Source: a virus. Taken from it: DNA of 24,605 nucleotides. Shown piece by piece: positions 142 to 22,018 of this stretch. How positions within the stretch are numbered: position 1 is the stretch's first letter; each line of letters starts with the position of its first letter. Position numbers and translations under genes: made by a program. The stretch is taken from positions 1-24,605 of IMG/VR virus record IMGVR_UViG_3300037486_000364. One strand, written 5' to 3'. Below the pieces are notes generated by a model, which had not been told where the DNA came from, did not search any database, and was given only the letters and a program-made list of their open reading frames with translations.

Positions 142-2577
142 ATGGCTGATGTCCGATACGCCGTCACAGTAGATGCCTCGGGGGCCGTGAAGTCTATCGA
201 GGCCCTCGACAAAGCTTGGGAGAAGCACGAAGCGAAGGTCAAGGAACAGGGCAACAAGGCGGAGGAAGCCGGCGGGAAAATGGGGGGCCTCTGGAAGCAG
301 ATGGCCATCGGCTCCCTCGTAGCCAGAGGCGTAGAGAAAGCCTTCTCCGCAGTAGTGGACGGGATAAAGGATTCGATCAAGGCGGCGGCGGAGGAGGAGG
401 AATCCGAGAACCGGCTCCGGGCGGCCCTGGAGACTACGGGCCGGTCGGTCGAGGGGAACCTCGAAGCCTACAAAGAGTTCGCCAAGGCGAAGATGGCCTC
501 GACGAAATACACCCACGAAGAGGTCGAGGCTTCCGCCACTCTCCTCCTCCAGCTCACCTCTCTCGACCAGAAGGGAGTGAAGCGGGCCATACAGGGAGCG
601 ATGGGCCTCTCCTCCGTTATGGGGACTGATCTCCACTCCGCCACGATGATGGTCACGAAGGCGATGGAGGGGAACTATACCGCCCTCCAGCGGGTGGGGA
701 TCAAGGTCGACGAAAACCTCACCGGGGCAGCAAAGCAGAACGCCCTTTTGGAGAAGCTGGGGAACCTCTATCCGAGAGCCGAGGCCGAGCTCAATACCTT
801 CGGAGGATCACTGAAACAGCTCGGCAATTATTGGGACGAGGTAAAGGAATCCATCGGCGGAACTATCGTCGGGAACGAGGATGTCAGGAAGGCGATGAAG
901 GGCCTCACCGAGGACCTGAAGAAGATGGTCGAGTCGGACCGCTTCAAGCTCTGGCTCTCTTCTCTGACGGAAGTCATTACCGCCGTAGTGAAGGGCCTCG
1001 GGGCGATAGGGAAAGCTATCGTCGACATCGAGGAAAGCCTCTTCGGGGCAAAGGGTTGGGAGGAGTATGTCGGGACCCAGACCGAAGCCAATGCCGTGAC
1101 CCAGCAGGGGATCAGCATTATGGCCCTTCGGAGGAAGGCTCTGGACTCCGATATGATCACCGTCAACACTTGGCGGGAGGAACTGAAGAAGGCCGGCGGG
1201 ACGGCTCGGGATATGATGAAGGCTATCTCTGAGGGGAAGCTCGGGCCCGAGATGAAGAGGCTCTTCGACGATATGAAGGCCGGGGCCGAGGCTACGAAGA
1301 AAGCGGCGGAGGCGGCGAAGCCGGCTATCAATGAAGTCGGGAACGGGCTGTCTGCCTCGGCGAAGTATGCGAAGGAGCTGAAGGCCGAGCTGAAGCTGGT
1401 CTTTAACGACGAGCTCCGGGCCCAACTCGCAAAGCATAAAGAGGCCCTGACCCTGTTCAAGGACAGCCTCTCCCCGAAGGATATCGAGGAGCTCGGGAAG
1501 AAGATATTCGAGCTGGAGACGAGGCTCGGAAGGTCGGCTACGGATACGGAAAAAGTCGACGCCATATTCAAGGAGCTCGGGGTCAAGACCATCCCCGAAC
1601 TGGCCGAAGCCACCCGCCTCTACGAACAGGCTATGTCCCGGCTTAATGCTCTCCACAAGGCCGGGGCGATAGACGAGCTCGAGTACGCCCGCCAGGCCGA
1701 GGGGATAAAGAAGAAGCTGGAGGAGAACCGGAACCTTCTAAAGACGGAGCTCCCGGCGGCGACCAGGACCTGGATTGATGAGGCCCTCCGCAACGCCCCG
1801 AAGCTCGATGCTTCGTGGGGGAGGACAACGAAGTCTATGGCGGATAAAATGAAGGACTTCGGGACGAAGGCCTCCGCCGTTATGGAGAAGGTCTCGGCGG
1901 TCTGGTCCACGGTCTCTTCCTCTATGACCGCCGTAACGGCCCAGGCCCAGCAGAACCGGGAAATCGCCATCGAGAATGAATACAAAAAGAGGCTGAAGGC
2001 GATCAACTCTTCGATAAAGGACGAGGCCAAAAAGCAATCCGCCATTACGGCTCTGGAGGCCGAGTTCGAGATCAAGAGAACCTCGGCTCGGGCGGCGGGT
2101 GCGAAACAGGCGAAGGCCGTAGCTTTGATGGAGGCTATCGTCAACACGGCTTCGGGTGTGGCCCGAGCCTTCAAGGATTGGGCCTTCCCGATGTCGGCTA
2201 TCATCGCCGGAATCGTCGGAGGCCTCGGGGCGGTCCAGATAGGCCTCATCGCCAAGCAACCTATCCCTCTCGCACGGGGGGCCGTGTTCACGAAGCCGAC
2301 CCGGATGAGGGACGAAACGGGAACGACCTATGAGATGGGCGAGGCGGGGACAGAATACCTCCTCCCTGAGAAGCACCTGACCGGGCTCCTGGGACGGGCC
2401 AGAGGGCAAATGGCGGGCCTTCCTGGGCTTGCTATGGCGGGGGGAGGGGGGACGGTGATCAACATCAACTCCCCTCTCGTCCAGACCTCGGGGCTCTCGG
2501 ATGCGGACCTGGAGAGGGCCGGCTCTAAGCTCTGGGAACGGATAGACCGGGAAGCCCGGCGGAGAGGGAGGAAGTAA
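142..2577 (+). CDS. Tail tape measure protein
   Basis: The 811-residue protein sets phage tail length and fills the tail tube before DNA ejection. It begins MADVRYAVTVDASGAV, as many tape measure proteins do, and is mostly Lys/Glu/Ala-rich helix with coiled-coil character (roughly residues 20-110 and 370-560). A hydrophobic stretch lies near residues 680-715. The C-terminal third has the common phage pattern of a helical NREIAIENEYKKRL segment followed by an Ala/Gly-rich hydrophobic region and a GEAGTEYLLPE motif near residue 735. At the usual relation of about 1.5 angstroms of tail per residue, it would specify a tail of roughly 120 nm, which favours a siphovirus-like or myovirus-like particle over a podovirus. 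The start has a GAGAGGAGC ribosome binding site, and the stop overlaps the next start (TAATG). Confidence 0.93.
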   Translation: MADVRYAVTVDASGAVKSIEALDKAWEKHEAKVKEQGNKAEEAGGKMGGLWKQMAIGSLVARGVEKAFSAVVDGIKDSIKAAAEEEESENRLRAALETTGRSVEGNLEAYKEFAKAKMASTKYTHEEVEASATLLLQLTSLDQKGVKRAIQGAMGLSSVMGTDLHSATMMVTKAMEGNYTALQRVGIKVDENLTGAAKQNALLEKLGNLYPRAEAELNTFGGSLKQLGNYWDEVKESIGGTIVGNEDVRKAMKGLTEDLKKMVESDRFKLWLSSLTEVITAVVKGLGAIGKAIVDIEESLFGAKGWEEYVGTQTEANAVTQQGISIMALRRKALDSDMITVNTWREELKKAGGTARDMMKAISEGKLGPEMKRLFDDMKAGAEATKKAAEAAKPAINEVGNGLSASAKYAKELKAELKLVFNDELRAQLAKHKEALTLFKDSLSPKDIEELGKKIFELETRLGRSATDTEKVDAIFKELGVKTIPELAEATRLYEQAMSRLNALHKAGAIDELEYARQAEGIKKKLEENRNLLKTELPAATRTWIDEALRNAPKLDASWGRTTKSMADKMKDFGTKASAVMEKVSAVWSTVSSSMTAVTAQAQQNREIAIENEYKKRLKAINSSIKDEAKKQSAITALEAEFEIKRTSARAAGAKQAKAVALMEAIVNTASGVARAFKDWAFPMSAIIAGIVGGLGAVQIGLIAKQPIPLARGAVFTKPTRMRDETGTTYEMGEAGTEYLLPEKHLTGLLGRARGQMAGLPGLAMAGGGGTVININSPLVQTSGLSDADLERAGSKLWERIDREARRRGRK

Positions 2578-2954
2578 TGGCAATCCTGCTCGGACCCTCC
2601 GGTTCGGAAACGACTCTCCCGGCGGTCAATTGGATTGCTCCCGGAGAGAAGGAGCTCCCCGTCGGATATAAGAAGAACCTCGATGTCACGCAGATGCTGG
2701 ACGGCTCGAAGCGGGTCAACTTCCGGGCCTATTCCCAGAAGAGCTTCAGCCTGGAGTGGGACCTCCTCCCGGCGGCGACTATCCTCACTCTGATCGGGTT
2801 GGCGGAGCTCAATCAAGTCCTCCGCTATCAGAACAATTGGGTCGATGCGACCTGGAGATTGGTGGTCGTTACGGGCTTCGAATATCAGGCCATCCAGAGC
2901 ACCTTCGCAGGGACGGCCCAGTATCGGGCCCAGATGTCGCTGGAGGAACTCTAG
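2577..2954 (+). CDS. Small tail protein (distal-tail or minor-tail-like)
   Basis: This 125-residue protein lies directly after the tape measure gene, with its ATG overlapping the TAA stop. It has a beta-rich pattern with alternating hydrophobic residues (NFRAYSQKSFSLEWDLL, then WRLVVVTGFEYQAI, ending AQMSLEEL). Small tail-tube-fold proteins in this position form the tail tip ring in many siphoviruses, such as lambda gpM or the N-terminal domain of distal tail proteins. I infer that role from position and fold style. I see no signature that proves it. The following gene starts on this gene's stop codon, so translation of the tail-tip proteins is probably coupled. Confidence 0.7.
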   Translation: MAILLGPSGSETTLPAVNWIAPGEKELPVGYKKNLDVTQMLDGSKRVNFRAYSQKSFSLEWDLLPAATILTLIGLAELNQVLRYQNNWVDATWRLVVVTGFEYQAIQSTFAGTAQYRAQMSLEEL

Positions 2955-5900
2955 TGCAGGGGATCACTCCCGTAACGGCCTCGGACCTGAAGACCAATGC
3001 CCAGAGCTCCCGCTTCCTCTTCGAGGTCTACAACGGGACGAAGTGGGTTGATCTAACCGACATCCCTAACCCCGTCAACACTCTCCCTACGGATACAGAT
3101 GCCGTCACCACGAACTTCGGTTCCGACGGGACCCACACCTGGACTATCTCCACCGACTATTCAATCCATAACACGGCGGGCGGGACCAGCGTCAAGTGGG
3201 TTTACGGCTCGGGGAGTGCGAACTTCTATTATGATATCTCCGGGACGGGATGGGGATCAGTCGGGACCGAGTGGAGCTTCTCCGTCTATGCCCGGAGGGC
3301 GGACGGGGCCGACTTCACCCCAACTGGGATGTACCTCTACACCCTCTCGGATAACCGGTCCATCACCAGCTATACGAAGACCTCCATCGGTAACGGTTGG
3401 TACAGGTTCTCCTGTTCCTATACTTTCGCCGTCTCCGCCAAGCTCTGGCTTGTCGGCATCTTTGGGCTCCCCTCCACGACGATATACTTCGACGGATGGA
3501 TGACGGAGCCGGGGCTCGGAACTTCTGAGGCCTCCATCTCTTTCCTCAAAGGTCAGAGCTGTGAGGTAGCGGGGGCGGGGAAAGATACGGAGCCCGTAGC
3601 CGGCTCCTGGTCCGTCAGCCTCGATAACTCCCTCGGGCTCTTCCATCCGTATCATCCGACCTCCACCTACAAGGACCTCATCAAGCTCGGGAGAAAGGTG
3701 AGGCTCTCGTGGGGGGCGGTCTATTCCGGGGTCCGCTACTTCTGGCAGAGGATCATCGGCTATATGGACCAGCCGAAGTATGACTCCCTCTCCGTCTCGG
3801 TATCGGGGACGGATTATATGAAGGCTATCGCAGACACGAAGCTCTTCTCCCCGTATACGAACTGGGGGGATGACGGGACCTTCTCCACGGACGCTTCCCC
3901 GACGGGCTCGGGGGCGGAGATTTATGCCGAGGCCGATGCCTGTGAGATAGGAGCCTCGGAGGCCGACAATGTGACCAACTGGGCGGGGGGAGGCTCGGGC
4001 GGAGTAGTGAGTTCCGAAGGGCCGGCCCCGGACTCCCTCTACTACCTGTATTTCGAAAGGGATATCGGGGGGAACATTCTCGAGTATGCCCACAACGCCA
4101 ATGTCGGTTCGGTCACGGCGGGGGCCACCTACCAGATAACCTTCGACGCTATGAAGACCGGGGTTCACTCCCCCTTCCTCTCCATCTACCAGACAGTCGG
4201 CTCGACGGCGACCCTTCTCAAGACGGTCTACATCAGCTCCGATACCTGGTGGGGAGAGGAACAGACCTTCACCGTAACGGCTACCGGGAACCTCCAGCTC
4301 CGTGTAGGATCACAGGGAAAATACTCGGCCTCCGGGGATTCGGTCCAGCTCGATAATATCTCCATCAAGGCGGTAGCTGGGACCTCCTGGAACATCTACG
4401 AGCTCCCCTCGACGGCGAGGGGGGTGTACTATGTGATCCTGAATGGAGCTCCCGTATGGCAAGGGGATGAGGACGGGAAGGGGGGATGGCACTACGACTC
4501 CGACCTCAACGCCCTCTTCTTCTCCGAAGACCTCGTCATAGATGCCGGGACGAATAACTTGGTGATCTACTACTATGAGCCCACGGCTCCCGAAAACATA
4601 GTGGCGGATATCCTCGTAGCCTCGGGCCTCTATGCGTCACGGGCTTTGGCTCTCTCCGATATGGTCTATACTCCGACGGGGATCACCATCGACAAGCCCT
4701 GGTTCGAGCCAGGGACCTCGGCCCTGGAGGCGATAAAGCTCCTCTGTGAGAGATGCAACTACCGCTTCTGGTTTACCTGGCAAGGATACCCAGCTTTTAC
4801 GCCGGCCCCTATCTACACGACCCCGGCGAGCTTCGACTTCGATGAGGTCAAATACGCCTCTTCCATAAGCCTCTCCCAGGACATCGGGGAGGTCAGGAAT
4901 CACATTACCATCGAGGGGTGTGAGAGGTCGGTCCTGAATGTCTCGACCCAGGCGGTAGATCAGAGCACCTGGAGAGGATCAGCGGAGGATTCTACCTCCA
5001 TCACCGCCTATCAGAGAAAGACCTATGCCCTCAACAATCACCTCTTCCAGAGCCAGGCATCCGCAGATGATATGTGTCTCTCCCTCCTCTCTTTTTACCG
5101 CAACCCCAAGTTCTATCTCGAGCTCAAGACCTCCCACCTTCCCGTCCCCCTAGAGGTCGGGGATACTATCTCCATCAAGCTCCCCGTCTCCCTCACAGAT
5201 ACGGTCACGAAGTACGGGATCATCCGTGGGATCAGTCTCCAAGACGGGGAAGCTACCTATCGGACGGAGGTCTATGTCCCATTCGATACCACTCTCGTAG
5301 TCCAGAACGCAGCCATCGGGGTCTCGGCTCCTTTGGTGGAGCTGGACTATCCTGGGGTCCTGGTCGTCCAGAATGCCGCCATCGTGCTCTCCTCCGAAAG
5401 CCCGGATGTTCAGCAACTATATGAATGGATAACCTACCAGGATGGGACCGAGGTCGACTGGCCGACGGGGGCGACCCAGGCCATCATCGAGTGCTGGGGC
5501 GGAGGCGGTATCGGAGGCAACGGTGAGATGGTCGGACGGGCCGGAGGCGGAGGAGGCGGAGGCTATTCGAAGATTACGGTCGATAAGGACGACTGGCCGA
5601 GTTCCCTGTTCATTTATATTCCCAACAGCGGGATAGGAGACGGGACCTATGTCGATAGTGGCGGCACGATATGCTATGCCGCCGGAGGTGATACCGGAGA
5701 CCTTACGGGCGGAGGCCAGGGCGGTCAGTCGTCGGGAGGAATCGGCGACACGAGGTATTCCGGTGGAAACGGTTACTTCTATGGGACGGGTTACACGGGC
5801 GGGGGCGGGGGCTCCTCTGCGGGGACCGCTTCCAATGGGAATAACGCCACCTCTTCTGCCGGAGCCACGGCGGTGACGGGGGGAGGGAACGGGGGGAACG

Positions 5901-6037
5901 GAGGAGCCCGCTACAACGACGGGTCGGACCCCACGACCCCTCCAGGAGGTGGAGGGGGAGGGGCTGGGGCGGACCTCTCGACGGAGAGGTACGGAGGGTC
6001 CGGCTCTATCGGAAAAATAAAGATCACTTTCTCGTGA
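2954..6037 (+). CDS. Tail hub / receptor-binding protein with two carbohydrate-binding-like insertions and a Gly-rich tip
   Basis: The start chosen is the GTG at 2954, which overlaps the previous TAG. It gives 1027 residues beginning VQGITPVTASDLK; a longer frame upstream runs through the preceding gene. Residues about 45-200 and 335-475 look like two jelly-roll carbohydrate-binding modules (aromatic beta strands; the second ends in a VQLDNISIK motif). Residues about 535-780 resemble a baseplate hub: DILVASGLY, then a CERCNYRFWFTWQG segment and GEVRNHITIEG. Two short VVQNAAI repeats follow near residues 783 and 804. From about residue 835 to the end lies a glycine-rich domain starting AIIECWGGGG, a class used as adhesin tips in tail fibres. 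It most likely anchors the tail tip and binds the cell-surface receptor. Confidence 0.85.
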   Translation: MQGITPVTASDLKTNAQSSRFLFEVYNGTKWVDLTDIPNPVNTLPTDTDAVTTNFGSDGTHTWTISTDYSIHNTAGGTSVKWVYGSGSANFYYDISGTGWGSVGTEWSFSVYARRADGADFTPTGMYLYTLSDNRSITSYTKTSIGNGWYRFSCSYTFAVSAKLWLVGIFGLPSTTIYFDGWMTEPGLGTSEASISFLKGQSCEVAGAGKDTEPVAGSWSVSLDNSLGLFHPYHPTSTYKDLIKLGRKVRLSWGAVYSGVRYFWQRIIGYMDQPKYDSLSVSVSGTDYMKAIADTKLFSPYTNWGDDGTFSTDASPTGSGAEIYAEADACEIGASEADNVTNWAGGGSGGVVSSEGPAPDSLYYLYFERDIGGNILEYAHNANVGSVTAGATYQITFDAMKTGVHSPFLSIYQTVGSTATLLKTVYISSDTWWGEEQTFTVTATGNLQLRVGSQGKYSASGDSVQLDNISIKAVAGTSWNIYELPSTARGVYYVILNGAPVWQGDEDGKGGWHYDSDLNALFFSEDLVIDAGTNNLVIYYYEPTAPENIVADILVASGLYASRALALSDMVYTPTGITIDKPWFEPGTSALEAIKLLCERCNYRFWFTWQGYPAFTPAPIYTTPASFDFDEVKYASSISLSQDIGEVRNHITIEGCERSVLNVSTQAVDQSTWRGSAEDSTSITAYQRKTYALNNHLFQSQASADDMCLSLLSFYRNPKFYLELKTSHLPVPLEVGDTISIKLPVSLTDTVTKYGIIRGISLQDGEATYRTEVYVPFDTTLVVQNAAIGVSAPLVELDYPGVLVVQNAAIVLSSESPDVQQLYEWITYQDGTEVDWPTGATQAIIECWGGGGIGGNGEMVGRAGGGGGGGYSKITVDKDDWPSSLFIYIPNSGIGDGTYVDSGGTICYAAGGDTGDLTGGGQGGQSSGGIGDTRYSGGNGYFYGTGYTGGGGGSSAGTASNGNNATSSAGATAVTGGGNGGNGGARYNDGSDPTTPPGGGGGGAGADLSTERYGGSGSIGKIKITFS

Positions 6038-6047
6038 GGAGGGGAAG

Positions 6048-6317
6048 ATGGCTGATATAAACAGCAGACAGTTCCGATGGCTCGGGGCGGATGATCTAGC
6101 CTCGACCCACTTGGAGCTGAGGCAGGGAGGGACCTTTATGACCTCCTCTATCTCCGCCGGCCTTCTCCGCAAGTGGGCCGAGGAGGGAAAGCTGGAGTTC
6201 ATCGAAGACCCCGTCTCCGTAGAGCTCCCTCACGATGTCGTCCTCCAGGTCCAGAACGGGACCATCAATCTGAGCTCTCTAGTCGGGGCCGTCAGAGCCG
6301 GGATAAAGGAGAGGTAA
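6048..6317 (+). CDS. Small tail-associated protein of unknown function
   Basis: The product is 89 residues, preceded by a GAGGGGAAG ribosome binding site. It begins MADINSRQFRWLGADDLAST, and a Met-rich central helix reads LLRKWAEEGKLEFIED. The end (VVLQVQNGTINLSSL) resembles the VVQNAAI repeats of the upstream hub/adhesin, which suggests a shared beta-hairpin module. I do not recognise a family. Its position between the adhesin gene and another structural-type gene suggests a virion or tail-fibre accessory role, but this is inference. Confidence 0.7.
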   Translation: MADINSRQFRWLGADDLASTHLELRQGGTFMTSSISAGLLRKWAEEGKLEFIEDPVSVELPHDVVLQVQNGTINLSSLVGAVRAGIKER

Positions 6318-6318
6318 A

Positions 6319-6696
6319 ATGGCAAAGTCCGTCCACAACGATATTCTCGATGCGGCCCTGAACTATATAAAAACCTACGCCACACGAATAGCCGTAGACA
6401 ACGCCGAGCCGACCACATATACCCAGCTCATCACGACCTATATGCTGGTGCTCAAGACCATCTCCAGCTCGGACTTCACGGGGCCGGCGGACGGGGATTC
6501 CAGCGGGAGGAAGCTGACCTCTAATCAGCACTCCACGGTAACGATCACCAACTCCGGGACGGCCTCTCATATCGGGCTCGGGGACTCTGGCTCGTCCAAG
6601 CTCCTCTTCGTCACGACCTGTACGAATCAGGCCCTGACGGCTACTAACACGGTCACTATCCCGAGCTGGAAAATAGAGATTGGAGACCCCACCTGA
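6319..6696 (+). CDS. Structural-type protein of unknown function
   Basis: The 125-residue product starts at an ATG one base after the previous stop, with GGAGAGG upstream. After an N-terminal helix (HNDILDAALNYIKTYATRI) it is rich in Thr, Ser and Gly with beta-strand spacing, including TVTITNSGTASHIGLGDSGS and a final VTIPSWKIEIGDPT. This style is common in phage tail or capsid surface proteins annotated only as hypothetical. There are no cysteines suggesting metal binding and no membrane segment. It is clearly part of the tail operon; its molecular role is unknown. Confidence 0.72.
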   Translation: MAKSVHNDILDAALNYIKTYATRIAVDNAEPTTYTQLITTYMLVLKTISSSDFTGPADGDSSGRKLTSNQHSTVTITNSGTASHIGLGDSGSSKLLFVTTCTNQALTATNTVTIPSWKIEIGDPT

Positions 6697-6697
6697 G

Positions 6698-6928
6698 ATG
6701 TCCACTCTTCCGTTCCTTGAGACTCTGACGGGAAGGGAGCGGGAGGTCTTTGAGCTGATCGGGAAGGGGAAGAAGAACACCGAGATTGCGGAGGAGCTGG
6801 GGATCACTTTGAACACGGTCCGAACCTACTCGAAGACCATCCACGATAAGCTCTATATCGAAGGCCGGGCGAACCTCGCTATTGCGGCCTACAAAGTTAT
6901 ATCGGAAGGAGAATCCAATGGCCTTTGA
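6698..6928 (+). CDS. Stand-alone LuxR/GerE-type helix-turn-helix protein
   Basis: This 76-residue protein is almost entirely a GerE/LuxR DNA-binding domain. The signature is LTGREREVFELIGKGKKNTE, then IAEELGITLNTVRTYSKTIH with the conserved NTVRTY recognition helix and a final KLYI segment. There is no receiver or ligand-binding domain. The ATG at 6698 is preferred, and an in-frame TTG at 6680 inside the previous gene is the alternative. The end overlaps the start of the next gene by 11 bases. It may be a phage transcription regulator co-expressed with tail genes; its target sites are unknown. Confidence 0.85.
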   Translation: MSTLPFLETLTGREREVFELIGKGKKNTEIAEELGITLNTVRTYSKTIHDKLYIEGRANLAIAAYKVISEGESNGL

Positions 6929-7314: not shown

Positions 7315-7353
7315 AGGGGGGCTGGGGATCACCTCCCCGGCCCCCTGTTTTTT
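7315..7353 (+). terminator. Rho-independent terminator at the end of the tail operon
   Basis: AGGGGG at 7315-7320 pairs with CCCCCT at 7341-7346, and GGGGA at 7324-7328 pairs with TCCCC at 7334-7338. A small internal loop lies between the two helices. Six T residues follow at 7348-7353. It lies 23 bases after the last tail-module gene and separates it from the ribozyme-punctuated operon. Confidence 0.85.
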
Positions 7354-7702
7354 CCGCCGCTATATAAGGAAGGCCCCCGTTTCACACGAAAATAGTTTGA
7401 ACGGGCAAGTGGAATCAATAACTTACACTGCCCTGGCTATGAAGATTTTTCTGGACATGCATAGTGCGAAGCCTTATCCTTGTACATGCCCCCGGGCGGG
7501 GCAGGACAGGACAGGGAGCCGGCGGCCACGGGGTCGAGCGACCTGGGACCGAGAGGAGACCCGAGAGGGCCTCTCAACCGAAAGCGAAAGCGACTAGGGA
7601 GAGGGAATCGGGGAACGGGCGGAAAGAAGAGGAGAGAAGGAGAGCCGGATGGGAGCCTATGAGCTCCCTGGACCGGAAGGCCGATAAACCTCCACCCCGC
7701 CT
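7354..7702 (+). other. Gene-free leader of the twister operon, with possible promoter and hairpins
   Basis: About 350 bases separate the tail-operon terminator from the first ribozyme. The only reading frames are short, with codon use unlike the neighbours (CGA, AGC). An A/T-richer stretch at 7361-7450 holds TATATAAGG and TTGAAC (7397-7402) 16 bases before TAACTT, so a promoter probably lies here, but I cannot fix it. Downstream are GC-rich inverted repeats: GGTCG/CGACC near 7530-7542, GAGAGG/CCTCTC near 7551-7577, and GGGAGC/GCTCCC near 7650-7668. No tRNA could be folded from it by eye. Confidence 0.5.
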
Positions 7703-7765
7703 AGCAGAGGGAAGGATCACAACGGGTGATCCTGTAATGCGCACCTCCGGTCCCAAGCCCGGAGG
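7703..7765 (+). ncRNA. Twister ribozyme 1 (circularly permuted, P5-type)
   Basis: AGCAGAGGG (7703-7711) is followed by a P1 hairpin with AGGATCAC pairing to GTGATCCT. Then come TAATGC (7735-7740), GC, and the P4 hairpin CCTCCGG / CCGGAGG (7744-7750, 7759-7765) closing the loop TCCCAAGC. The loop and flanking helix match the P4 arm of the known rice twister. The GGG and CCC would form one pseudoknot, and GC with GC the other. P2 is TGC with GCA. Predicted cleavage is between U7735 and A7736, 58 bases before the next start codon. Confidence 0.9.
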
Positions 7766-7793
7766 AATCCAAAACTTTTTGAGGAGGTCTTCG

Positions 7794-8141
7794 ATGAACA
7801 AGCAGGATCAAATCGGGATGGTGGTCGGGCAGATTATCGAGCTCGTCTACGAAGAGAGGATGGCGGATGACCTCGCCCTCGTTTCTTCACGGACCGCCGA
7901 CGAACTGACCGGAAGCACGAAGGACCGGGAAGCGGCCCGGATGCGGGAGAATTACTTCCAGGGCCAGGGATACGCTTTCATGATCGGACGGCACTACCTC
8001 CTGGACCAGCTGAAGGAGATGGGCCTCCACATCGAGAGCCTCCACCAGGTCCTCTACTTCAACCCGCCCCTTCCGGTCTACAACGACATCGAGAGCTACG
8101 ACGAGCCGAAGGGCCAGACCTACGACGGCAGAGAGCTCTGA
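7794..8141 (+). CDS. Small early-type protein, unknown function
   Basis: The product is 115 residues, with a GAGGAGGT ribosome binding site six bases before the ATG. It begins MNKQDQIGMVVGQIIELVYE and is acidic and mostly helical. A conserved-looking core reads ENYFQGQGYAFMIGRHYLLD, and the tail is Tyr- and Asp-rich. There is no membrane segment or metal motif, and I do not recognise the family. It is the first gene of the ribozyme-punctuated operon and would be alone on the processed mRNA between cleavage sites 1 and 2. Its TGA overlaps the first base of ribozyme 2. Confidence 0.78.
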   Translation: MNKQDQIGMVVGQIIELVYEERMADDLALVSSRTADELTGSTKDREAARMRENYFQGQGYAFMIGRHYLLDQLKEMGLHIESLHQVLYFNPPLPVYNDIESYDEPKGQTYDGREL

Positions 8142-8201
8142 GCAGAGGGGAAGGAGGGAAGGCCCTCCTTCTAATGCGCACGGGCCGTCCCAAGCCGGCC
8201 C
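8141..8201 (+). ncRNA. Twister ribozyme 2 (P5-type)
   Basis: AGCAGAGGG (8141-8149) starts on the last base of the upstream stop codon. P1 is GAAGGAGGG with CCCTCCTTC, nine pairs closed by an AAGG loop. TAATGC is at 8172-8177, and P4 is GGGCCG / CGGCCC (8182-8187, 8196-8201) around TCCCAAGC. P1 and P4 differ completely in sequence from copy 1 yet still pair. The predicted cut is between 8172 and 8173, leaving a 54-base leader for the next gene. Confidence 0.9.
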
Positions 8202-8226
8202 AATCCCAATCCTTCAGGAGGTTCTA

Positions 8227-8493
8227 ATGTACGCTTCACAAGTTATTCTCTCGGCTTCCCACAGAGGCTTCGGGGTCCTGACCTTCTTCGACCGGAGCCG
8301 GTCCCTCTACTTCTTCCGTCTGATATTCGAAGGCCAGAAGCTCTTCGAGAGCCCCCACCACTTCCGGTTCGCCAGGAACGCCCACGAGGCGGGCCTCGAC
8401 GAAGCCACCCGGCAGTACGAGGGAATGGTCGAGGAGCAGAACGCCGACTGTGCTGCGGCTATCCGGGCGGAGAGAGGAACCCGCCTTGGCTGA
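8227..8493 (+). CDS. Small early-type protein, unknown function
   Basis: The 88-residue product has an AGGAGGT ribosome binding site a few bases before the ATG. The N-terminal half is aromatic and beta-like (SRSLYFFRLIFEGQKLFE). The C-terminal half is helical and charged (EATRQYEGMVEEQNADCAAA). It has single cysteines only and no obvious membrane segment, and I do not recognise a family. It is alone between ribozymes 2 and 3, so it would be translated from its own processed mRNA. Confidence 0.72.
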   Translation: MYASQVILSASHRGFGVLTFFDRSRSLYFFRLIFEGQKLFESPHHFRFARNAHEAGLDEATRQYEGMVEEQNADCAAAIRAERGTRLG

Positions 8494-8497
8494 TCCT

Positions 8498-8553
8498 AGC
8501 AGAGGGCGGGGGCCTTCCCCCGTAATGCGCAGGCCCCGTCCCAAGCCGGGGCC
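8498..8553 (+). ncRNA. Twister ribozyme 3 (P5-type)
   Basis: AGCAGAGGG (8498-8506) comes five bases after the upstream TGA. P1 is CGGGGG / CCCCCG with a four-base loop. TAATGC is at 8523-8528, and P4 is GGCCCCG / CGGGGCC (8532-8538, 8547-8553) around TCCCAAGC. The predicted cut between 8523 and 8524 leaves a 65-base leader for the next gene. Confidence 0.9.
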
Positions 8554-8588
8554 AGAGCAAATCTCACAATCCTTTTAGGAGGTTTCAA

Positions 8589-9035
8589 ATGGCAAAGTAC
8601 ATGAGCAGGGCGAAGAGACTGGCGGAGGCTCTGGGGATGATCGACACGGTGGTCCAGGGCCTGAACTCGATGGCGGACGATGTCCGGGACGGGAGGGAGA
8701 TCAACCCGGGCCGTATCGAGGACTTCGTCAACATCATCTCCGACTCCACCTCCTCCGTGGAAGAGCTCAAGGAAGAGCTGGAGAACTGGTACGACAACCT
8801 GCCCGAGAACTTCCAGAACGGGATGAAGGGGGACGAGCTCCAGGAAGCTATCGACGCCCTGGACGGAATCTACTCCAGCCTCGACGAGCAGAAGGATGCG
8901 GTCGAGGACCTCCTGACCTTCGAGGCCTCGGACCCCGACGATAAGAAGGAAGAGCTGGCGGGGGCGATGGAGGATATCGCCAACGAGCTCGAGTCGGCCC
9001 AGATGGAAGATGTTACCTTCCCCGGGATGTACTGA
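8589..9035 (+). CDS. Acidic helical protein, unknown function
   Basis: The 148-residue protein follows an AGGAGG ribosome binding site and begins MAKYMSRAKRLAEALGMIDT. It is strongly acidic and predicted mostly helical, with heptad-like segments (SSVEELKEELENWYDNLPEN and LDEQKDAVEDLLTF). There are no cysteines or membrane segments. Acidic helical phage proteins can act as inhibitors of host DNA-binding proteins, but nothing here proves that and the family is not recognised. It shares the processed mRNA between ribozymes 3 and 4 with the next gene, which starts one base after its stop. Confidence 0.78.
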   Translation: MAKYMSRAKRLAEALGMIDTVVQGLNSMADDVRDGREINPGRIEDFVNIISDSTSSVEELKEELENWYDNLPENFQNGMKGDELQEAIDALDGIYSSLDEQKDAVEDLLTFEASDPDDKKEELAGAMEDIANELESAQMEDVTFPGMY

Positions 9036-9036
9036 G

Positions 9037-9264
9037 ATGGGGATCACCATCAAGCTCTCCGACTGCTGCCGGGGCGAGCTGATCCTGGCGGTCCGGTACA
9101 AGGCGACCTCCTCCTCCCCCGAGGAGAGGGACTATATCTGCAGGGAGTGCGGGAGCTGGTGCGACCCGGTCCTCTTCCTCCAGGACGAGGAGGACGGGAC
9201 CCTGACGGATTCCGAGACCCTGGAGTCGGGCCTGGAGCCGGCTCCCTCTCACCAGTACGACTAG
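9037..9264 (+). CDS. Small cysteine-rich (putative zinc-binding) protein
   Basis: The ATG at 9037 follows the previous stop by one base, giving 75 residues. Cysteines at 10, 11, 35, 38 and 42 (SDCCRGE and ICRECGSWCDP) suggest a small zinc ribbon, followed by an acidic tail. It is translationally linked to the upstream acidic protein. Its TAG stop overlaps the AG that begins ribozyme 4, so coding and ribozyme sequence abut directly. Function unknown; nucleic-acid or protein binding is the usual role of such ribbons. Confidence 0.75.
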   Translation: MGITIKLSDCCRGELILAVRYKATSSSPEERDYICRECGSWCDPVLFLQDEEDGTLTDSETLESGLEPAPSHQYD

Positions 9265-9330
9265 CAGAGGGGAGGAGGGCCCGAGAGGGCCTTCCTCTAA
9301 TGCGGCAAGGCCGGTCCCAAGCCCCGGCCT
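9263..9330 (+). ncRNA. Twister ribozyme 4 (P5-type)
   Basis: AGCAGAGGG (9263-9271) overlaps the upstream TAG stop. P1 is an 11-pair helix, GAGGAGGGCCC with GGGCCTTCCTC (one G-U pair), around a GAGA tetraloop. TAATGC is at 9298-9303, and P4 is AGGCCGG / CCGGCCT (9308-9314, 9324-9330) around TCCCAAGCC. After TAATGC this copy has GGC where copies 1, 2, 3 and 5 have GC, and it can still pair with the loop's GCC. The predicted cut is between 9298 and 9299, with a 54-base leader. Confidence 0.9.
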
Positions 9331-9352
9331 AATCCAACCGCTGGAGGTTTCA

Positions 9353-9682
9353 ATGTACTTCTATCTGTCCATCTTCGACTCGGCGAAGAAGGAGGTCGAG
9401 GTCGCTTGCCCCGGATGCGGGACGACCTTCCTCCTCTCCGACCGGCACGACTTCGAGGCTATGGAGTGGACGGCCCACTGCGCCCGCTGTAACGGCCTCT
9501 TCGGAGTCGTAAACCCCGAGATGTTCCGGACCCTCGTCTCCCCGGTCTGGAACACGAAGAAGAGCCCCACTCCCGTCTATGTCGACCTCGTCCGGGTGAC
9601 CAGGACGGACAACGGGGTCCTCCTCTACCGCTGGCACGGATGGGTCGATAACGACTCCCGCCAAATCGTCCAGGAGGGCTGA
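9353..9682 (+). CDS. Zinc-ribbon protein, unknown function
   Basis: The product is 109 residues with a GGAGGT ribosome binding site. A zinc ribbon is formed by Cys19-x2-Cys22 and Cys43-x2-Cys46 (ACPGCGTTF and HCARCNGLF). The C-terminal half is beta-like with aromatic residues (YVDLVRVTRTDNGVLLYRW). It has no membrane segment, and I do not recognise a named family. It is the first of two genes between ribozymes 4 and 5, and the next gene begins one base after its stop. Confidence 0.76.
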   Translation: MYFYLSIFDSAKKEVEVACPGCGTTFLLSDRHDFEAMEWTAHCARCNGLFGVVNPEMFRTLVSPVWNTKKSPTPVYVDLVRVTRTDNGVLLYRWHGWVDNDSRQIVQEG

Positions 9683-9683
9683 G

Positions 9684-10004
9684 ATGGGAGCCGATACCTT
9701 CTCCACCTACATCATCGTCACCGGCTCTTTAAAGGAGGCCTTCGACGAGGCCGTGAAGAGAGCCCTCTACGACTACGGCCACGCCGGCTACACGGGGACC
9801 CTCGCCGAGAAGGACTCCTTCGTCCTGATCGGGAAGGCGGAGAGCCAGACGGAGGCTGGAGCTCTCGCCCGGAAGCTGATCAACGAGGGCGACCCCCGCA
9901 TCGACGATAAGTGGGGGCCGGCTGGGATCATCACCTTCCCCTCCCGTCTCCTTGACGGGACGGAGGTTACCAAGGCCCTGATCTTCGGATGGGCCTCGTC
10001 CTAG
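9684..10004 (+). CDS. Small alpha/beta protein, unknown function
   Basis: The 106-residue protein starts one base after the previous stop. It has an alternating alpha/beta pattern: TFSTYIIVTGSLKEAFDEAV, then a helix and strand, LIGKAESQTEAGALARKLIN and a final ALIFGWASS. The spacing could suit a small ferredoxin-like fold, though this is only a guess from the pattern. There are no catalytic motifs or cysteines. It shares an mRNA unit with the upstream zinc-ribbon protein, and its TAG overlaps ribozyme 5. Confidence 0.73.
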   Translation: MGADTFSTYIIVTGSLKEAFDEAVKRALYDYGHAGYTGTLAEKDSFVLIGKAESQTEAGALARKLINEGDPRIDDKWGPAGIITFPSRLLDGTEVTKALIFGWASS

Positions 10005-10083
10005 CAGAGGGAAGGCCTCTCCAGGCCCCGACATTCGGGCCAGGAGGGGCTTTTAATGCGCATCCCCTGTCCCAAGCCAGGGG
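10003..10083 (+). ncRNA. Twister ribozyme 5 (P5-type, long P1)
   Basis: AGCAGAGGG (10003-10011) overlaps the upstream TAG. P1 is the longest of the set: AAG, CCTCTCC and GGCCC pair with GGGCC, GGAGGGG and CTT, with one bulged G and one A-A mismatch. TAATGC is at 10054-10059, and P4 is CCCCTG / CAGGGG (10064-10069, 10078-10083) around TCCCAAGC. The predicted cut between 10054 and 10055 leaves a 58-base leader. Confidence 0.88.
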
Positions 10084-10112
10084 AAAGCAAATCTCATCAA
10101 GGAGGGCCACAC

Positions 10113-10385
10113 ATGGCCAATATGAGCTACTGCCGGTTTGAGAACACCGCTTCGGACCTTCTGGACTGCGAGGGCCACATCCTCGACAAGCTCGGAAGGG
10201 ATGAGGCCATCGGGCGGGTCAGCCTCGTCCGGTGCTGCCTCTCCATCCTGGAGGGGCTCGGGTGCGAGATCAGGAACTCGGCCGATATGGAGATCAACGC
10301 CGAGGATGCCGAAGACCTGATCAAGGACGCCCTGGAGGATATGGGCGAGAACCCCGACGAGGAAGAAGAAGAGGAAGAGGCCTGA
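10113..10385 (+). CDS. Small phage protein of the MSYCRFEN type
   Basis: The ATG at 10113 follows AAGGAGGG and gives 90 residues. The N-terminus (MANMSYCRFENTASDLLDC) matches a family of short phage and plasmid proteins seen in many tailed phages and annotated as hypothetical. The middle is helical, and the end is an acidic run of Glu and Asp after residue 78. It is the first of two genes between ribozymes 5 and 6; the next gene starts one base after its stop. Function is not known for the family. Confidence 0.82.
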   Translation: MANMSYCRFENTASDLLDCEGHILDKLGRDEAIGRVSLVRCCLSILEGLGCEIRNSADMEINAEDAEDLIKDALEDMGENPDEEEEEEEA

Positions 10386-10386
10386 T

Positions 10387-10581
10387 ATGAAGCCCTCCCG
10401 CCGCTTCTTCATCGAACTCGCCGCCATCATCCGGGCGAACGGGAGCCGGGAGAGGGCCACCATCCAGGCCCTCCCCTTCATCGAGGAACTCTGCGAGCTC
10501 CTCCGGTCCCACAACCCGAGCTTCAACGAGGAGAAGTTCAAAGAGGCCTCGGGCTTCAAGGACATGTTCGCCGACGACTGA
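10387..10581 (+). CDS. Small basic/helical protein, unknown function
   Basis: This 64-residue product begins one base after the previous stop. It starts MKPSRRFFIELAAIIRANGS and appears entirely helical, ending EASGFKDMFADD. The N-terminus of about 25 residues resembles that of small phage proteins found next to the MSYCRFEN type, so the pair may be a conserved unit. There is no metal motif or membrane segment. It ends 13 bases before ribozyme 6. Confidence 0.7.
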   Translation: MKPSRRFFIELAAIIRANGSRERATIQALPFIEELCELLRSHNPSFNEEKFKEASGFKDMFADD

Positions 10582-10594
10582 TCCCCACGCCGAA

Positions 10595-10655
10595 AGCAGA
10601 GGGCGGGAGCCTCGGGCTCCCGTAATGCTGGAGGCCTCGGTCCCAACCCCGAGGC
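10595..10655 (+). ncRNA. Twister ribozyme 6 (P5-type, variant loop)
   Basis: AGCAGAGGG (10595-10603) is followed by P1, CGGGAGCC with GGCTCCCG. TAATGC is at 10623-10628, and P4 is GCCTCGG / CCGAGGC (10634-10640, 10649-10655). Its loop reads TCCCAACC instead of TCCCAAGC. The bases after TAATGC change at the same time from GC to TGG, so GG could still pair with CC, a compensatory change in a pseudoknot. The predicted cut between 10623 and 10624 leaves a 59-base leader for the DUF932-type gene. Confidence 0.85.
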
Positions 10656-10682: not shown

Positions 10683-12125
10683 ATGTCAGGACAGTTGATG
10701 GCACACAAGGACACGAGCATCGTGTCGGAGGCGGTGGTGCTGGCGGAGCCCAGGCCCGAGTTCACCTCGACCTGGCACCCGTACTCCCACCGGGAGGTCA
10801 TCGAGACCGTCGGGGCCGCTTGCGACAAGCTCGGATGGTCGGTGGCCCGCAAGACCTATTCGATCAAAAAGGACGACAAGATGTTCGGGGTCTGGGACCT
10901 GGAGAAGAAGGGCGGGGAGCTCGTCAAGACGAAGGAGAGGACCCTCTCCCTCGGGCTCCGGAACTCCATCGCCAAGACGGCCTCGGTCGGCCTCTGCGCC
11001 GGCCTCCGGGTCTTCGTCTGCGACAACCTCGTTTTCCGGGGCGACTTCGTTATGTTCCGGAAGCACACGGGGCTCCTCTCCGGGGACGAGCTCGGGATCA
11101 TGGCCGAGGAAGCCCTGGTCGCCCTCTCCACCCGCTTCACCTTCGTGGACGAGTGGTGGGAGGGGCTGAAGAAGGTAGAGCTCACGGACCCCCAGGCTTC
11201 GGCTTTGATGACGGCGGCGATGAACCGGCCCCACAATCCGATCATCCCCCCGTCCAAGTTCGGGGCCTTCTACGACCTGTACTTCGGGAAGGGGACGAAG
11301 TACACCCCGACGCTCCACGGGTTCCACGGGGCGGTGACGGAGATGCTCCAACAGGACGCTCTCCACTCCATCGGCTGGCGGAGCAAGGACCTCGTGACCT
11401 TCCTCGACCTAGAGGCTCCGGTGATCCTCGGTCAGCACAAGGGCCGTATCCACTTCGACGAGATCAGAGAGAAGGCCAAGGAAGGGCGGAGCGAGAAGGC
11501 GGAGGAGGAGAAGGCCGCCTCGAAGGAGGAGCAGGCCATCCTCAAGGAGAAGATCAAGGCCCGCCTGAAAGAGGCCAAGGTGGAGGCCAAGGCCCAGGCC
11601 AAGGAGAAGGCCCTGCCCAAGGGGAAGAAACCCGCTGGCAAGGCTCTGGCGGGGCAAAAACAGGCCCCCAAGAAGGGGAAGGGGAAGGCTCCCGTCCAGA
11701 AGAAGGAGGAGCCCGTCAAGGTCGTCCGTGAGGTCGTCCCCGGTGTAAACCTCATGACCGACGGCTCCCTGAAGAAGAAGGAGCCCGAGAAGAAGGCCGA
11801 GCTGGGGATCAGCTTCGACGGGAAGCTCGTCCGGAGGACGGCCCGGGTGAAGGCCCGGGAGGTTATCGCCTCCGAGTCCAAGCCCGTCAAGACGAAGCTC
11901 CAGAAGGCCCCGAAGGGCGAGAAGATCACCACGGCGAAGGCCTCCACGAAGAAGGCCAAGCTCGAGGAAGAGGAGGACATCCTCTTCTGCTCCAAGTGCG
12001 AAGGGGAGTTCCTCGCCGGACGGACCGTCCGGGTGGACGGAGATGTCTGGTGCCTCGGGTGCAACGAGGCCCGGAAGGAAGAGGCCAAGGCCGAGATGAA
12101 GAAGAGGCCTCTGAAGAAGAGCTGA
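10683..12125 (+). CDS. DUF932-type protein with Lys-rich linker and C-terminal zinc finger
   Basis: The 480-residue protein follows AAGGAGGT. Residues 1-260 match the DUF932 family of phage and plasmid proteins: HREVIETVGAACDKLGW, then LSLGLRNSIAKTASVGLCAG with RVFVCDNLVFRGDF, and a later DALHSIGWRSKDLVTFLDLE segment. The family's biochemical role is not established. Residues about 265-430 are an unusually long Lys/Ala/Glu-rich, probably disordered and basic tract. Residues about 435-470 form a zinc-finger-like module with two CxxC pairs (FCSKCEGEF and WCLGCNEA). The basic tract and finger suggest nucleic-acid binding. It is the last gene of the ribozyme operon and is followed by a strong terminator. 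Confidence 0.85.
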   Translation: MSGQLMAHKDTSIVSEAVVLAEPRPEFTSTWHPYSHREVIETVGAACDKLGWSVARKTYSIKKDDKMFGVWDLEKKGGELVKTKERTLSLGLRNSIAKTASVGLCAGLRVFVCDNLVFRGDFVMFRKHTGLLSGDELGIMAEEALVALSTRFTFVDEWWEGLKKVELTDPQASALMTAAMNRPHNPIIPPSKFGAFYDLYFGKGTKYTPTLHGFHGAVTEMLQQDALHSIGWRSKDLVTFLDLEAPVILGQHKGRIHFDEIREKAKEGRSEKAEEEKAASKEEQAILKEKIKARLKEAKVEAKAQAKEKALPKGKKPAGKALAGQKQAPKKGKGKAPVQKKEEPVKVVREVVPGVNLMTDGSLKKKEPEKKAELGISFDGKLVRRTARVKAREVIASESKPVKTKLQKAPKGEKITTAKASTKKAKLEEEEDILFCSKCEGEFLAGRTVRVDGDVWCLGCNEARKEEAKAEMKKRPLKKS

Positions 12126-12141: not shown

Positions 12142-12189
12142 GGGCCGAGAGGGCCGGGAGTCCACGGGGATTCTCGGCCCTTTTTTTTT
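12142..12189 (+). terminator. Strong rho-independent terminator of the twister operon
   Basis: GGGCCGAGA (12142-12150) pairs perfectly with TCTCGGCCC (12172-12180), followed by nine T residues (12181-12189). The loop can form further short pairings. It lies 16 bases after the DUF932-type gene and sets the 3' end of the last processed mRNA unit. Confidence 0.92.
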
Positions 12190-20355: not shown

Positions 20356-20885
20356 TGAAGAAGCCTATTTTTTTGAATGTCCGTTTCGGTCAGCTCCGTC
20401 CGTGGGACAAGAATCCCCGCCAAGCTACCGAGGAGAATGTAAAGAGCCTCGCCGCCCAGCTGAAGGAGGTCGGCATCTTCAAGAACTTCGTCTGCTGGCA
20501 GGAAGGGGACGACGAGAAGAATAAGACCTATACCGTCGGCGGGGGGAACATCCGCCTCGTCGCTATGCGGGAGCTCCTCGGGGTCGGCCCGGAGGAGAAG
20601 GTCAACATCGCCGTCTGCTTCCCCGAGACAGAAGCCGAGAAGGTTCGCATCTCCCTCCTCGACAACATGACCTTCGGGAGCTATGTCGAGCAACAGCTTG
20701 CCGAGCTGACCTACGGCTTCAAGGATGATCCCGCCCTGGCCGGCCTCCGGGTCAACTTCTCCTACGGGGTGGACCTGAAGGAGATTCTGGACTCCGTCGG
20801 GCCCTCCGCCCCTCTCACCGAGAAGGAGCTCTCCGAGAATGTGGAGACCTCGATGGAGTGTCCGAGGTGCGGCTACAAATGGTGA
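20352..20885 (+). CDS. ParB N-terminal-like (ParB/Srx fold) phage protein
   Basis: The 177-residue protein starts at the ATGA overlap with the previous gene. The ParB-type N-terminal motif is clear: LRPWDKNPRQATEENVKSLA, then AQLKEVGIFKNF and YTVGGGNIRLVAMRELLG. The usual HHR of ParB clamps is replaced by GGNIR. The C-terminus ends with MECPRCGYKW, a half zinc knuckle typical of phage ParB-like proteins that sit beside or are fused to DNA methyltransferases. It lacks the DNA-binding HTH of chromosomal ParB, so a DNA-modification or nuclease-related role is more likely than partitioning. Confidence 0.85.
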   Translation: MMKKPIFLNVRFGQLRPWDKNPRQATEENVKSLAAQLKEVGIFKNFVCWQEGDDEKNKTYTVGGGNIRLVAMRELLGVGPEEKVNIAVCFPETEAEKVRISLLDNMTFGSYVEQQLAELTYGFKDDPALAGLRVNFSYGVDLKEILDSVGPSAPLTEKELSENVETSMECPRCGYKW

Positions 20886-22018
20886 GTATAAACGCCACGG
20901 CCTACGGGAAGAAGTCGAACCTCCCCTGTGTCACCTCCCAGGTCGACATCTGCACCATCCCCTTCCACTTCGACCCGTATGTCGGATGCCCTCACGGATG
21001 TCTCTACTGCTTCGCCCGAGACCTCGTGAACTTCCGACGGAGGAACTCCCCGCTGACATTCGGTCAGCTGGAGATCAACTCCTATGCCCACTTCCACAAG
21101 GCCATCAACCGGATACTCTCCCGGCCTATCGACGAGAAGAATATCCTTTCCGTGTTCCTGAAGAACCGTGTCCCTCTGAAGATAGGGGCCGTGGCTGATC
21201 CCTGCCCGGAGTCCGAGAGGAAGAACCGCCTCACCTACGCCTACCTCCGTCTGCTCCAGGACCTAGACTATCCGGTCCAGATTCAGACGAAGAGGCCCGA
21301 TGTCCTCTCCGAATACATCGGGGACTTCAAAGGGGCGAACCTCATCGTGTCGGTTACCATCATCGCCTCGGACCGGCACTCGGAGGTGATAGAGCCTAAT
21401 GTCCTGAACTCCTCGGGCCGGTTCGCCGCCATCCGGAAGATCACTGACCTCGGCTTCCCGGTCCTCATCCGCTGTCAGCCGGCTATCTATCCCATTATCC
21501 TGGAGGACCTCCCCTGGCTCATCGATCAGACGAAGGAGAGCGGGGCTTGGGGCTTCCAGACCGAAGGGCTGAAGCTCCGTATCGCCGCCCCTCAGTCGGA
21601 GAAGGATCACTTCCGGGAGCTCGGAAGGGCTCTCGGGATTCCCGACATCTACGCCTACTACCGAGAGAACGGGAGCCGGAGCTCCTCCGACTACGAGCTC
21701 TCCGTAGAGCAGAAGATGGAGTACACGGCGAAGGCTCGGGACCTGACCCACAAGGCCGGCCTCGTCTATCTCTCCGCCGACAATCAGGAAGAGTGTATCC
21801 TCTGCTCGGACTCGGACGAGTGCTGCGGGACCCAGAAGCTCCGCAACTACAAAAAGTTCACCTATAACCTCCGCACCAAAATCTTCACCGGCAAGGATTG
21901 GCCCGAGCTCGAGAACGGGCTGGAGAGGGCCATCTACACCGGAAGGAACTGCGAAGAGGGGATGGTGCTGAAGGACTTCGTCCGGGCGAAGGTAGAGAAG
22001 GGAGAGAAGAGGAAGTGA
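20882..22018 (+). CDS. Radical SAM protein of the SPL/SplB (photolyase-related) type
   Basis: The GTG at 20882 lies on the ParB stop (GTGA); a start at 20858 would only lengthen the overlap. The 378-residue protein has the 4Fe-4S/SAM motif Cys36-x3-Cys40-x2-Cys43 (YVGCPHGCLYCFAR). The TIM-barrel-like pattern typical of COG1533 SplB-type proteins follows, including KIGAVADPCPESERKN, VQIQTKRPDV and LIVSVTIIASDR. A second cysteine set at Cys305, 308, 314 and 315 (ECILCSDSDECC) could bind another cluster. The family includes spore photoproduct lyase, which works on thymine dimers in DNA. Its place between ParB-like and cytosine methyltransferase genes suggests action on phage DNA; the substrate is unknown. 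Confidence 0.86.
   Translation: MSINATAYGKKSNLPCVTSQVDICTIPFHFDPYVGCPHGCLYCFARDLVNFRRRNSPLTFGQLEINSYAHFHKAINRILSRPIDEKNILSVFLKNRVPLKIGAVADPCPESERKNRLTYAYLRLLQDLDYPVQIQTKRPDVLSEYIGDFKGANLIVSVTIIASDRHSEVIEPNVLNSSGRFAAIRKITDLGFPVLIRCQPAIYPIILEDLPWLIDQTKESGAWGFQTEGLKLRIAAPQSEKDHFRELGRALGIPDIYAYYRENGSRSSSDYELSVEQKMEYTAKARDLTHKAGLVYLSADNQEECILCSDSDECCGTQKLRNYKKFTYNLRTKIFTGKDWPELENGLERAIYTGRNCEEGMVLKDFVRAKVEKGEKRK

Follow-up and report, generated by a model that had tools for sequence, protein, structure and literature searches.

Tandem twister ribozymes punctuating a phage operon and their probable role in dividing its transcript into one- or two-gene messages

Introduction

Self-cleaving ribozymes have been linked to phage transcripts on several occasions, although what they do in bacteria and phages is still called open or speculative in reviews (PMC6155905, PMC5408937). 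The closest precedent arises from the clustered hammerhead ribozymes of prophages (Perreault et al. 2011, PMC3088659, Figure 3), where several ribozymes flank single genes or short gene blocks. Processing of the transcripts into single-gene or operon-length mRNAs was proposed for these clusters, and cleavage of tandem arrays was shown in vitro and, for one of them, in E. coli. Twister ribozymes of type P5 (Rfam RF02684; Roth et al. 2014, as cited in PMC5408937) are, for their part, found to cluster within kilobases of each other and of particular genes, with a function that remains speculative, and their strongest associations are with Mu-like phage genes, for a reason that is not known (PMC10085705). 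Besides, the HDV-like theta ribozymes of gut phages process phage transcripts as well, but belong to a different class and act on viral tRNA transcripts rather than on mRNA junctions (PMC10879173). Finally, the start-associated sequences SAS/ESAS of Cluster K mycobacteriophages form series of repeated leader elements, half of them with inverted repeats, in front of many non-structural phage genes, some overlapping the upstream stop codon; they are not known to be ribozymes, their repeat sequence is itself conserved, and their function is unknown (PMC3203893).

Here, we analyse a stretch of 24,605 nucleotides (the window), which is the whole of the IMG/VR virus record IMGVR_UViG_3300037486_000364, a linear fragment. 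In comparison with the prophage hammerheads, of which the tandem cases we found described have up to three copies, the locus carries six twisters, and related arrays hold up to 20 copies in a slot fused to the stop codon, with slots conserved under compensatory change and with twisters and hammerheads mixed in one array, none of which we found reported for the prophage clusters. In comparison with previously described twisters, each copy has a fixed place in a gene series, and a role follows from that place. No paper describing twister arrays that punctuate phage operons was found in our literature search, which was limited to openly readable articles.

Identification of the six ribozymes

A covariance-model scan of the window against Rfam returned Twister-P5 at six places, all on the + strand, with scores of 44.5-55.8 bits against a curated cut-off of 37.6 and E values from 2e-6 to 2.5e-9 (Table 1). 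No riboswitch or other Rfam family was above cut-off in the window, and 14 control genomes gave no hit, so that a chance match is rejected. All six copies have AGCAGAGGG, a P1 hairpin, TAATGC and a P4 hairpin, in the order expected for the permutation with termini on the P5 side (P2 3' strand, P1 hairpin, cleavage site, P2 5' strand, P4), and both pseudoknots, T1 and T2, can be formed between the internal loops and L4 in each of them. The U-A step within UAA, at which twisters cleave, is present in all six, and TAA was found in 190 of 200 parsed copies.

The observation made in the initial annotation, namely six twisters of the P5 form in series, is therefore real, and the cleavage positions and the leaders of 54-65 nt that it gave are exact. 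Three details have to be corrected, however. First, the P4 loop, given there as the same in every copy, is TCCCAAGC in five copies but TCCCAACC in copy 6, where the T2 partner has changed to match (GC/GC to GG/CC), a change on both sides which strengthens the case. Second, copy 1 does not lie between two adjacent genes but in the 5' leader of the unit, about 410 nt past the previous called gene, with a predicted terminator in between. Third, copies 2, 4 and 5 overlap the stop codon of the gene before (TGA or TAG running into AGCAGAGGG).

Table 1. Features of the ribozyme-containing unit, in window coordinates
Position	Strand	Feature	Predicted cut	Support and remarks
7316..7346	+	Predicted intrinsic terminator after the upstream gene block		13-bp stem then GTTTTTT; consensus match only
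7452..7480	+	Sigma-70-like promoter candidate upstream of the array		TGGACA-17-TATCCT; consensus match only, weak
7703..7762	+	Twister-P5 ribozyme 1, in the 5' leader of the unit	7735|7736	55.3 bits
7794..8141	+	Gene, 115 aa, unknown
8141..8199	+	Twister-P5 ribozyme 2, overlapping the TGA stop of the gene before	8172|8173	51.4 bits
8227..8493	+	Gene, 88 aa, unknown
8498..8550	+	Twister-P5 ribozyme 3, 4 nt after the TGA stop	8523|8524	53.9 bits; orthologous slot holds a ribozyme in record G017
8589..9035	+	Gene, 148 aa, unknown; first of a two-gene unit		PHROG 4068
9037..9264	+	Gene, 75 aa; coupled to the gene before (1-nt gap)
9263..9327	+	Twister-P5 ribozyme 4, TAG stop overlaps its first bases	9298|9299	52.6 bits
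9353..9682	+	Gene, 109 aa		Weak zinc-ribbon match below cut-off
9684..10004	+	Gene, 106 aa; coupled (1-nt gap)
10003..10081	+	Twister-P5 ribozyme 5, TAG stop overlaps its first bases; long P1	10054|10055	44.5 bits
10113..10385	+	Gene, 90 aa, unknown		PHROG 8760
10387..10581	+	Gene, 64 aa; coupled (1-nt gap)
10595..10652	+	Twister-P5 ribozyme 6, 13 nt after the stop; loop CCCAACC, T2 pair GG/CC instead of GC/GC	10623|10624	55.8 bits; orthologous slot holds a ribozyme in G017 and G028
10683..12125	+	Gene, 480 aa, DUF932-like, last in the unit		Pfam E 4.6e-4, just under the curated cut-off
12147..12184	+	Predicted intrinsic terminator closing the unit		Consensus match only

All called genes of the window run on the + strand. 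Between the two predicted terminators lie nine genes in six units, in such a way that genes within a unit are one base apart whereas a ribozyme is always present between units, and each ribozyme is followed 25-38 bases later by an ATG behind a Shine-Dalgarno (SD), ribozyme 1 serving the first gene.

Similar arrays in other records

Exact-pattern scans of IMG/VR and of a genome collection, followed by covariance-model scans of the records found, show arrays of 3 or more copies in about 30 records including the window, with up to 20, 15 and 14 copies in G057, G010 and G043, respectively (labels beginning with G or L denote individual records or loci of this analysis). A few of these records are near-duplicates of each other, one such pair being 99% identical. 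Since our simple gene caller fails in parts of L042, L043, L044, L048, L051 and others, position statistics were computed directly from stop and start codons. In 205 copies from 41 loci, the first base of the ribozyme lies on or within 4 bases of the stop codon (-4..0) of an ORF of 30 or more residues in 132 cases (64%), against 2.9% of random positions, and an SD plus ATG ORF follows within 60 nt in 181 (88%), against 16%; both hold in 56%, against 0.7%. Among internal copies, 129 of 149 begin within 15 nt of such a stop, and the median distance from the predicted cut to the ATG is 54 bases. In the ten arrays with reliable gene calls, ribozyme junctions have a median gap of 87 nt and strong SDs in 48 of 56 cases, whereas ribozyme-free junctions have a median gap of 5 nt and strong SDs in 36 of 61.

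The genes served mostly encode small unknown proteins, those recognised being DUF932 (twice independently), ArdC anti-restriction, DUF2786/DUF7168, DUF6011, AAA and VWA proteins and a UvrD-like helicase. In this context, Perreault et al. noted hammerheads next to the anti-restriction gene ardA (PMC3088659).

In a search for the host through relatives, the array DNA matches only a small piece (4% of the query) of a Rhodococcus phage gene, tblastn of the DUF932-like and radical SAM proteins against phage records returned nothing, and the RecT match is too broad to name a host. Probes of 30 nt directed at isolated phages carrying the ribozyme gave only chance-level hits, so that our gene calls could not be compared with an annotated genome. 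A single-protein search for relatives of the DUF932 gene found none, while an alignment query found five loci, two of them already known.

Selection on structure and conservation of slots

Over 195 distinct copies, the T1 pseudoknot occurs in many pair types (GGG/CCC, GAG/CTC, GGA/TCC, GTG/CAC, GCA/TGC, GCG/CGC, CGG/CCG, TGG/CCA, AGG/CCT and others) and T2 as AC/GT, GC/GC, GG/CC, CC/GG and AG/CT. T1 is fully paired in 184 copies (shuffles: mean 122, maximum 133) and in 47 of the 58 copies away from GGG/CCC (mean 9.4, maximum 18), while T2 is Watson-Crick in 183 (mean 78, maximum 103). As shuffles do not remove relatedness between copies, slots before orthologous genes were compared. The DUF932-like gene of the window has relatives in G017 and G028 (38% and 36% identity), and all three are preceded by a ribozyme with the otherwise rare T2 = GG/CC, while in G017 both P2 and T1 have changed and still pair, as read directly from the aligned sequences. 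In another group, four phages keep a ribozyme before one gene with T1 = GAG/CTC, GGA/TCC, GGG/CCC and AGG/CCT. Overall, 15 reciprocal-best gene pairs carry a ribozyme in both phages against 7.1 expected (p 0.004), although pairs within one group of phages are not independent. However, 18 orthologous pairs have it in one member only, and three further relatives of the DUF932 gene have none, two of them being closely coupled to the gene before. Slots are thus gained and lost, and the ribozyme is not needed for that gene family. Several slots also hold degenerate copies (e.g. L051, L052).

Occupation of the same kind of slot by hammerheads

Type II hammerheads occur in six of the examined records that also carry twisters, three above the Rfam cut-off and three, L161 among them, below it and therefore to be taken with caution. 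In L161 the hammerhead overlaps a TAG stop at -2 and is followed by SD+ATG at 19 bases, in L056 a TAG lies at -1 and an ATG at 46, and in L057 an ATG lies at 22. This suggests that what is kept is the cut, not the motif.

A model for processing of the operon transcript

The explanation that we favour, with fairly good confidence, is that the six elements cut the transcript of the operon, probably as it is made, into six mRNAs of one or two genes, each cut lying between the stop codon of one unit and the SD of the next. In this permutation, the P1 hairpin, whose median predicted energy is -14.4 kcal/mol over 195 copies, would stay at the 3' end of the upstream mRNA, with a 2',3'-cyclic phosphate, and the P4 hairpin, which forms about 8-10 bases from the new 5' end in the window, would stay near the 5'-OH end of the downstream one. 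Every unit would thereby get a uniform leader, its own start signal and hairpins near both ends, which plausibly protect it from exonucleases and RNase E and let each gene be expressed and decay independently. While the identity of the ribozymes, their position, covariation, recurrence, conserved slots and the occupation of like slots by another ribozyme class are shown by the present sequence analysis, the self-cleavage of these copies, its occurrence in vivo, the formation of separate functional mRNAs, their stabilisation and their independent expression are inferred. It cannot be excluded that the cleaved halves stay joined through P2, T1 and T2, in which case cutting need not separate the mRNAs, or that the abutment on stop codons simply reflects genome compaction. 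The interpretation of the initial annotation is partly supported: the type-P5 identity, the cleavage sites and the one- or two-gene units are supported, and a role as intercistronic scissors, in which cleavage itself is inferred, is strongly supported by position in almost 30 further records, by compensatory change in orthologous slots and by hammerheads in the same slots, but its suggestion of an RNA-processing system not yet described was too strong in view of the prophage hammerheads. The twister form, the array size, the stop-codon-fused slot and the interchange of ribozyme classes are what is new here.

Among the alternatives, the least unlikely is that the ribozymes act as destabilising or switchable leaders, cleavage exposing a 5'-OH end that sets mRNA decay or being regulated by ribosomes or a ligand, so that the point would be control of dose rather than separation of cistrons. 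In line with this, copy 1 of the window sits in the leader of the first gene, where there is no upstream cistron to separate, and only 11 of 26 first copies lie on a stop codon; moreover, the 5' strand of the core overlaps or abuts the stop codon in most internal copies, from which we infer that a terminating ribosome would cover it. Nevertheless, the elements are minimal, with no aptamer-like extension, and internal copies mostly sit just behind a stop codon.

It is more doubtful that the ribozymes cut out monomeric gene-length RNAs which are then ligated into circular mRNAs or circular RNA parasites. Twister cleavage gives 5'-OH and 2',3'-cyclic phosphate ends, which are the substrates of RtcB, and record G059 encodes an RtcB (PF01139, E 1e-118) about 3 kb from its array. 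However, RtcB was found in only 1 of 36 array records, though hosts may supply it and the records are fragments, each unit keeps its own SD and start right after the cut, and Perreault et al. looked for circular or spliced products of tandem hammerheads and found none (PMC3088659). Finally, selfish or drifting leader cassettes (ribozyme plus SD), copied between genes by recombination with no benefit from cutting, are the least likely, since, despite identical copies within L042 and within L045 that show recent duplication and the variable presence between orthologous genes, the six window copies differ in P1 and P4, T1 and T2 change in a compensated way also within orthologous slots, another ribozyme class fills the same kind of slot, and all copies lie on the coding strand in front of genes.

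Significance for phage gene expression

A broader hypothesis, which we consider slightly more likely than not, is that these arrays represent a widespread phage gene-expression design, the self-cutting operon, in which any fast self-cleaving ribozyme (mostly P5 twister, sometimes type II hammerhead) is placed in a stereotyped slot from stop codon to SD before each gene unit, so that one promoter would yield up to about twenty independent mRNAs with RNA-made, hairpin-guarded ends, selection acting on the cut itself and not on the ribozyme class. Arrays of 6-20 copies in fixed slots, with class interchange, turn the question of what such ribozymes do into a testable claim, which bears on the ends, half-lives and expression of each cistron with and without cleavage. 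If this view is right, these phages use RNA scissors, without any protein, in place of host RNases and internal promoters or terminators, and the cassette made of P1 hairpin, cut, P4 hairpin and SD would be a ready part for balanced multi-gene expression.

In one of the records carrying a twister array (G059), an RtcB RNA ligase gene lies about 3 kb from the array (locus L151), RtcB being an enzyme that joins the kind of RNA ends a twister makes. Besides, type II hammerheads were found in the same records as twister arrays, several of them being fitted between stop codon and SD like the twisters. Seven parsed twister copies have CAA instead of UAA at the cleavage site; their activity is uncertain. 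In the window, the small HTH protein encoded just before the predicted terminator that precedes the array is a candidate regulator, while the radical-SAM-like protein, a weak Pfam match, has no match in the phage collection. The 20-copy array of record G057 (90,579 bases) touches both ends of the record, as if a circular genome had been opened inside the array. Finally, identical ribozyme copies within one array, observed in loci L042 and L045, are evidence of recent duplication of a leader cassette.

Features observed in the window and in the array-bearing records (G) and loci (L)
Record or locus	Position	Strand	Feature
G059	50628-51827	-	RtcB gene
G059 (L151)	42361-47844		Twister array
L161	2590-2652		Type II hammerhead
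L056 (oriented)	10749-10810		Type II hammerhead
L057 (oriented)	2400-2461		Type II hammerhead
L144	5863-5926		Type II hammerhead
L148			Type II hammerhead
L043			Type II hammerhead
G057	86733-89810 and 916-6579		Twister copies
L047 (oriented)	7154 and 7468		CAA copies
L154:10872 gene slot	6782 and others		CAA copies
L042	4455 and 6163		Identical copies
L045	6785 and 10499		Identical copies
Window	6698-6928		LuxR/sigma-70-region-4 type HTH protein
Window	20879-22018		Radical-SAM-like protein
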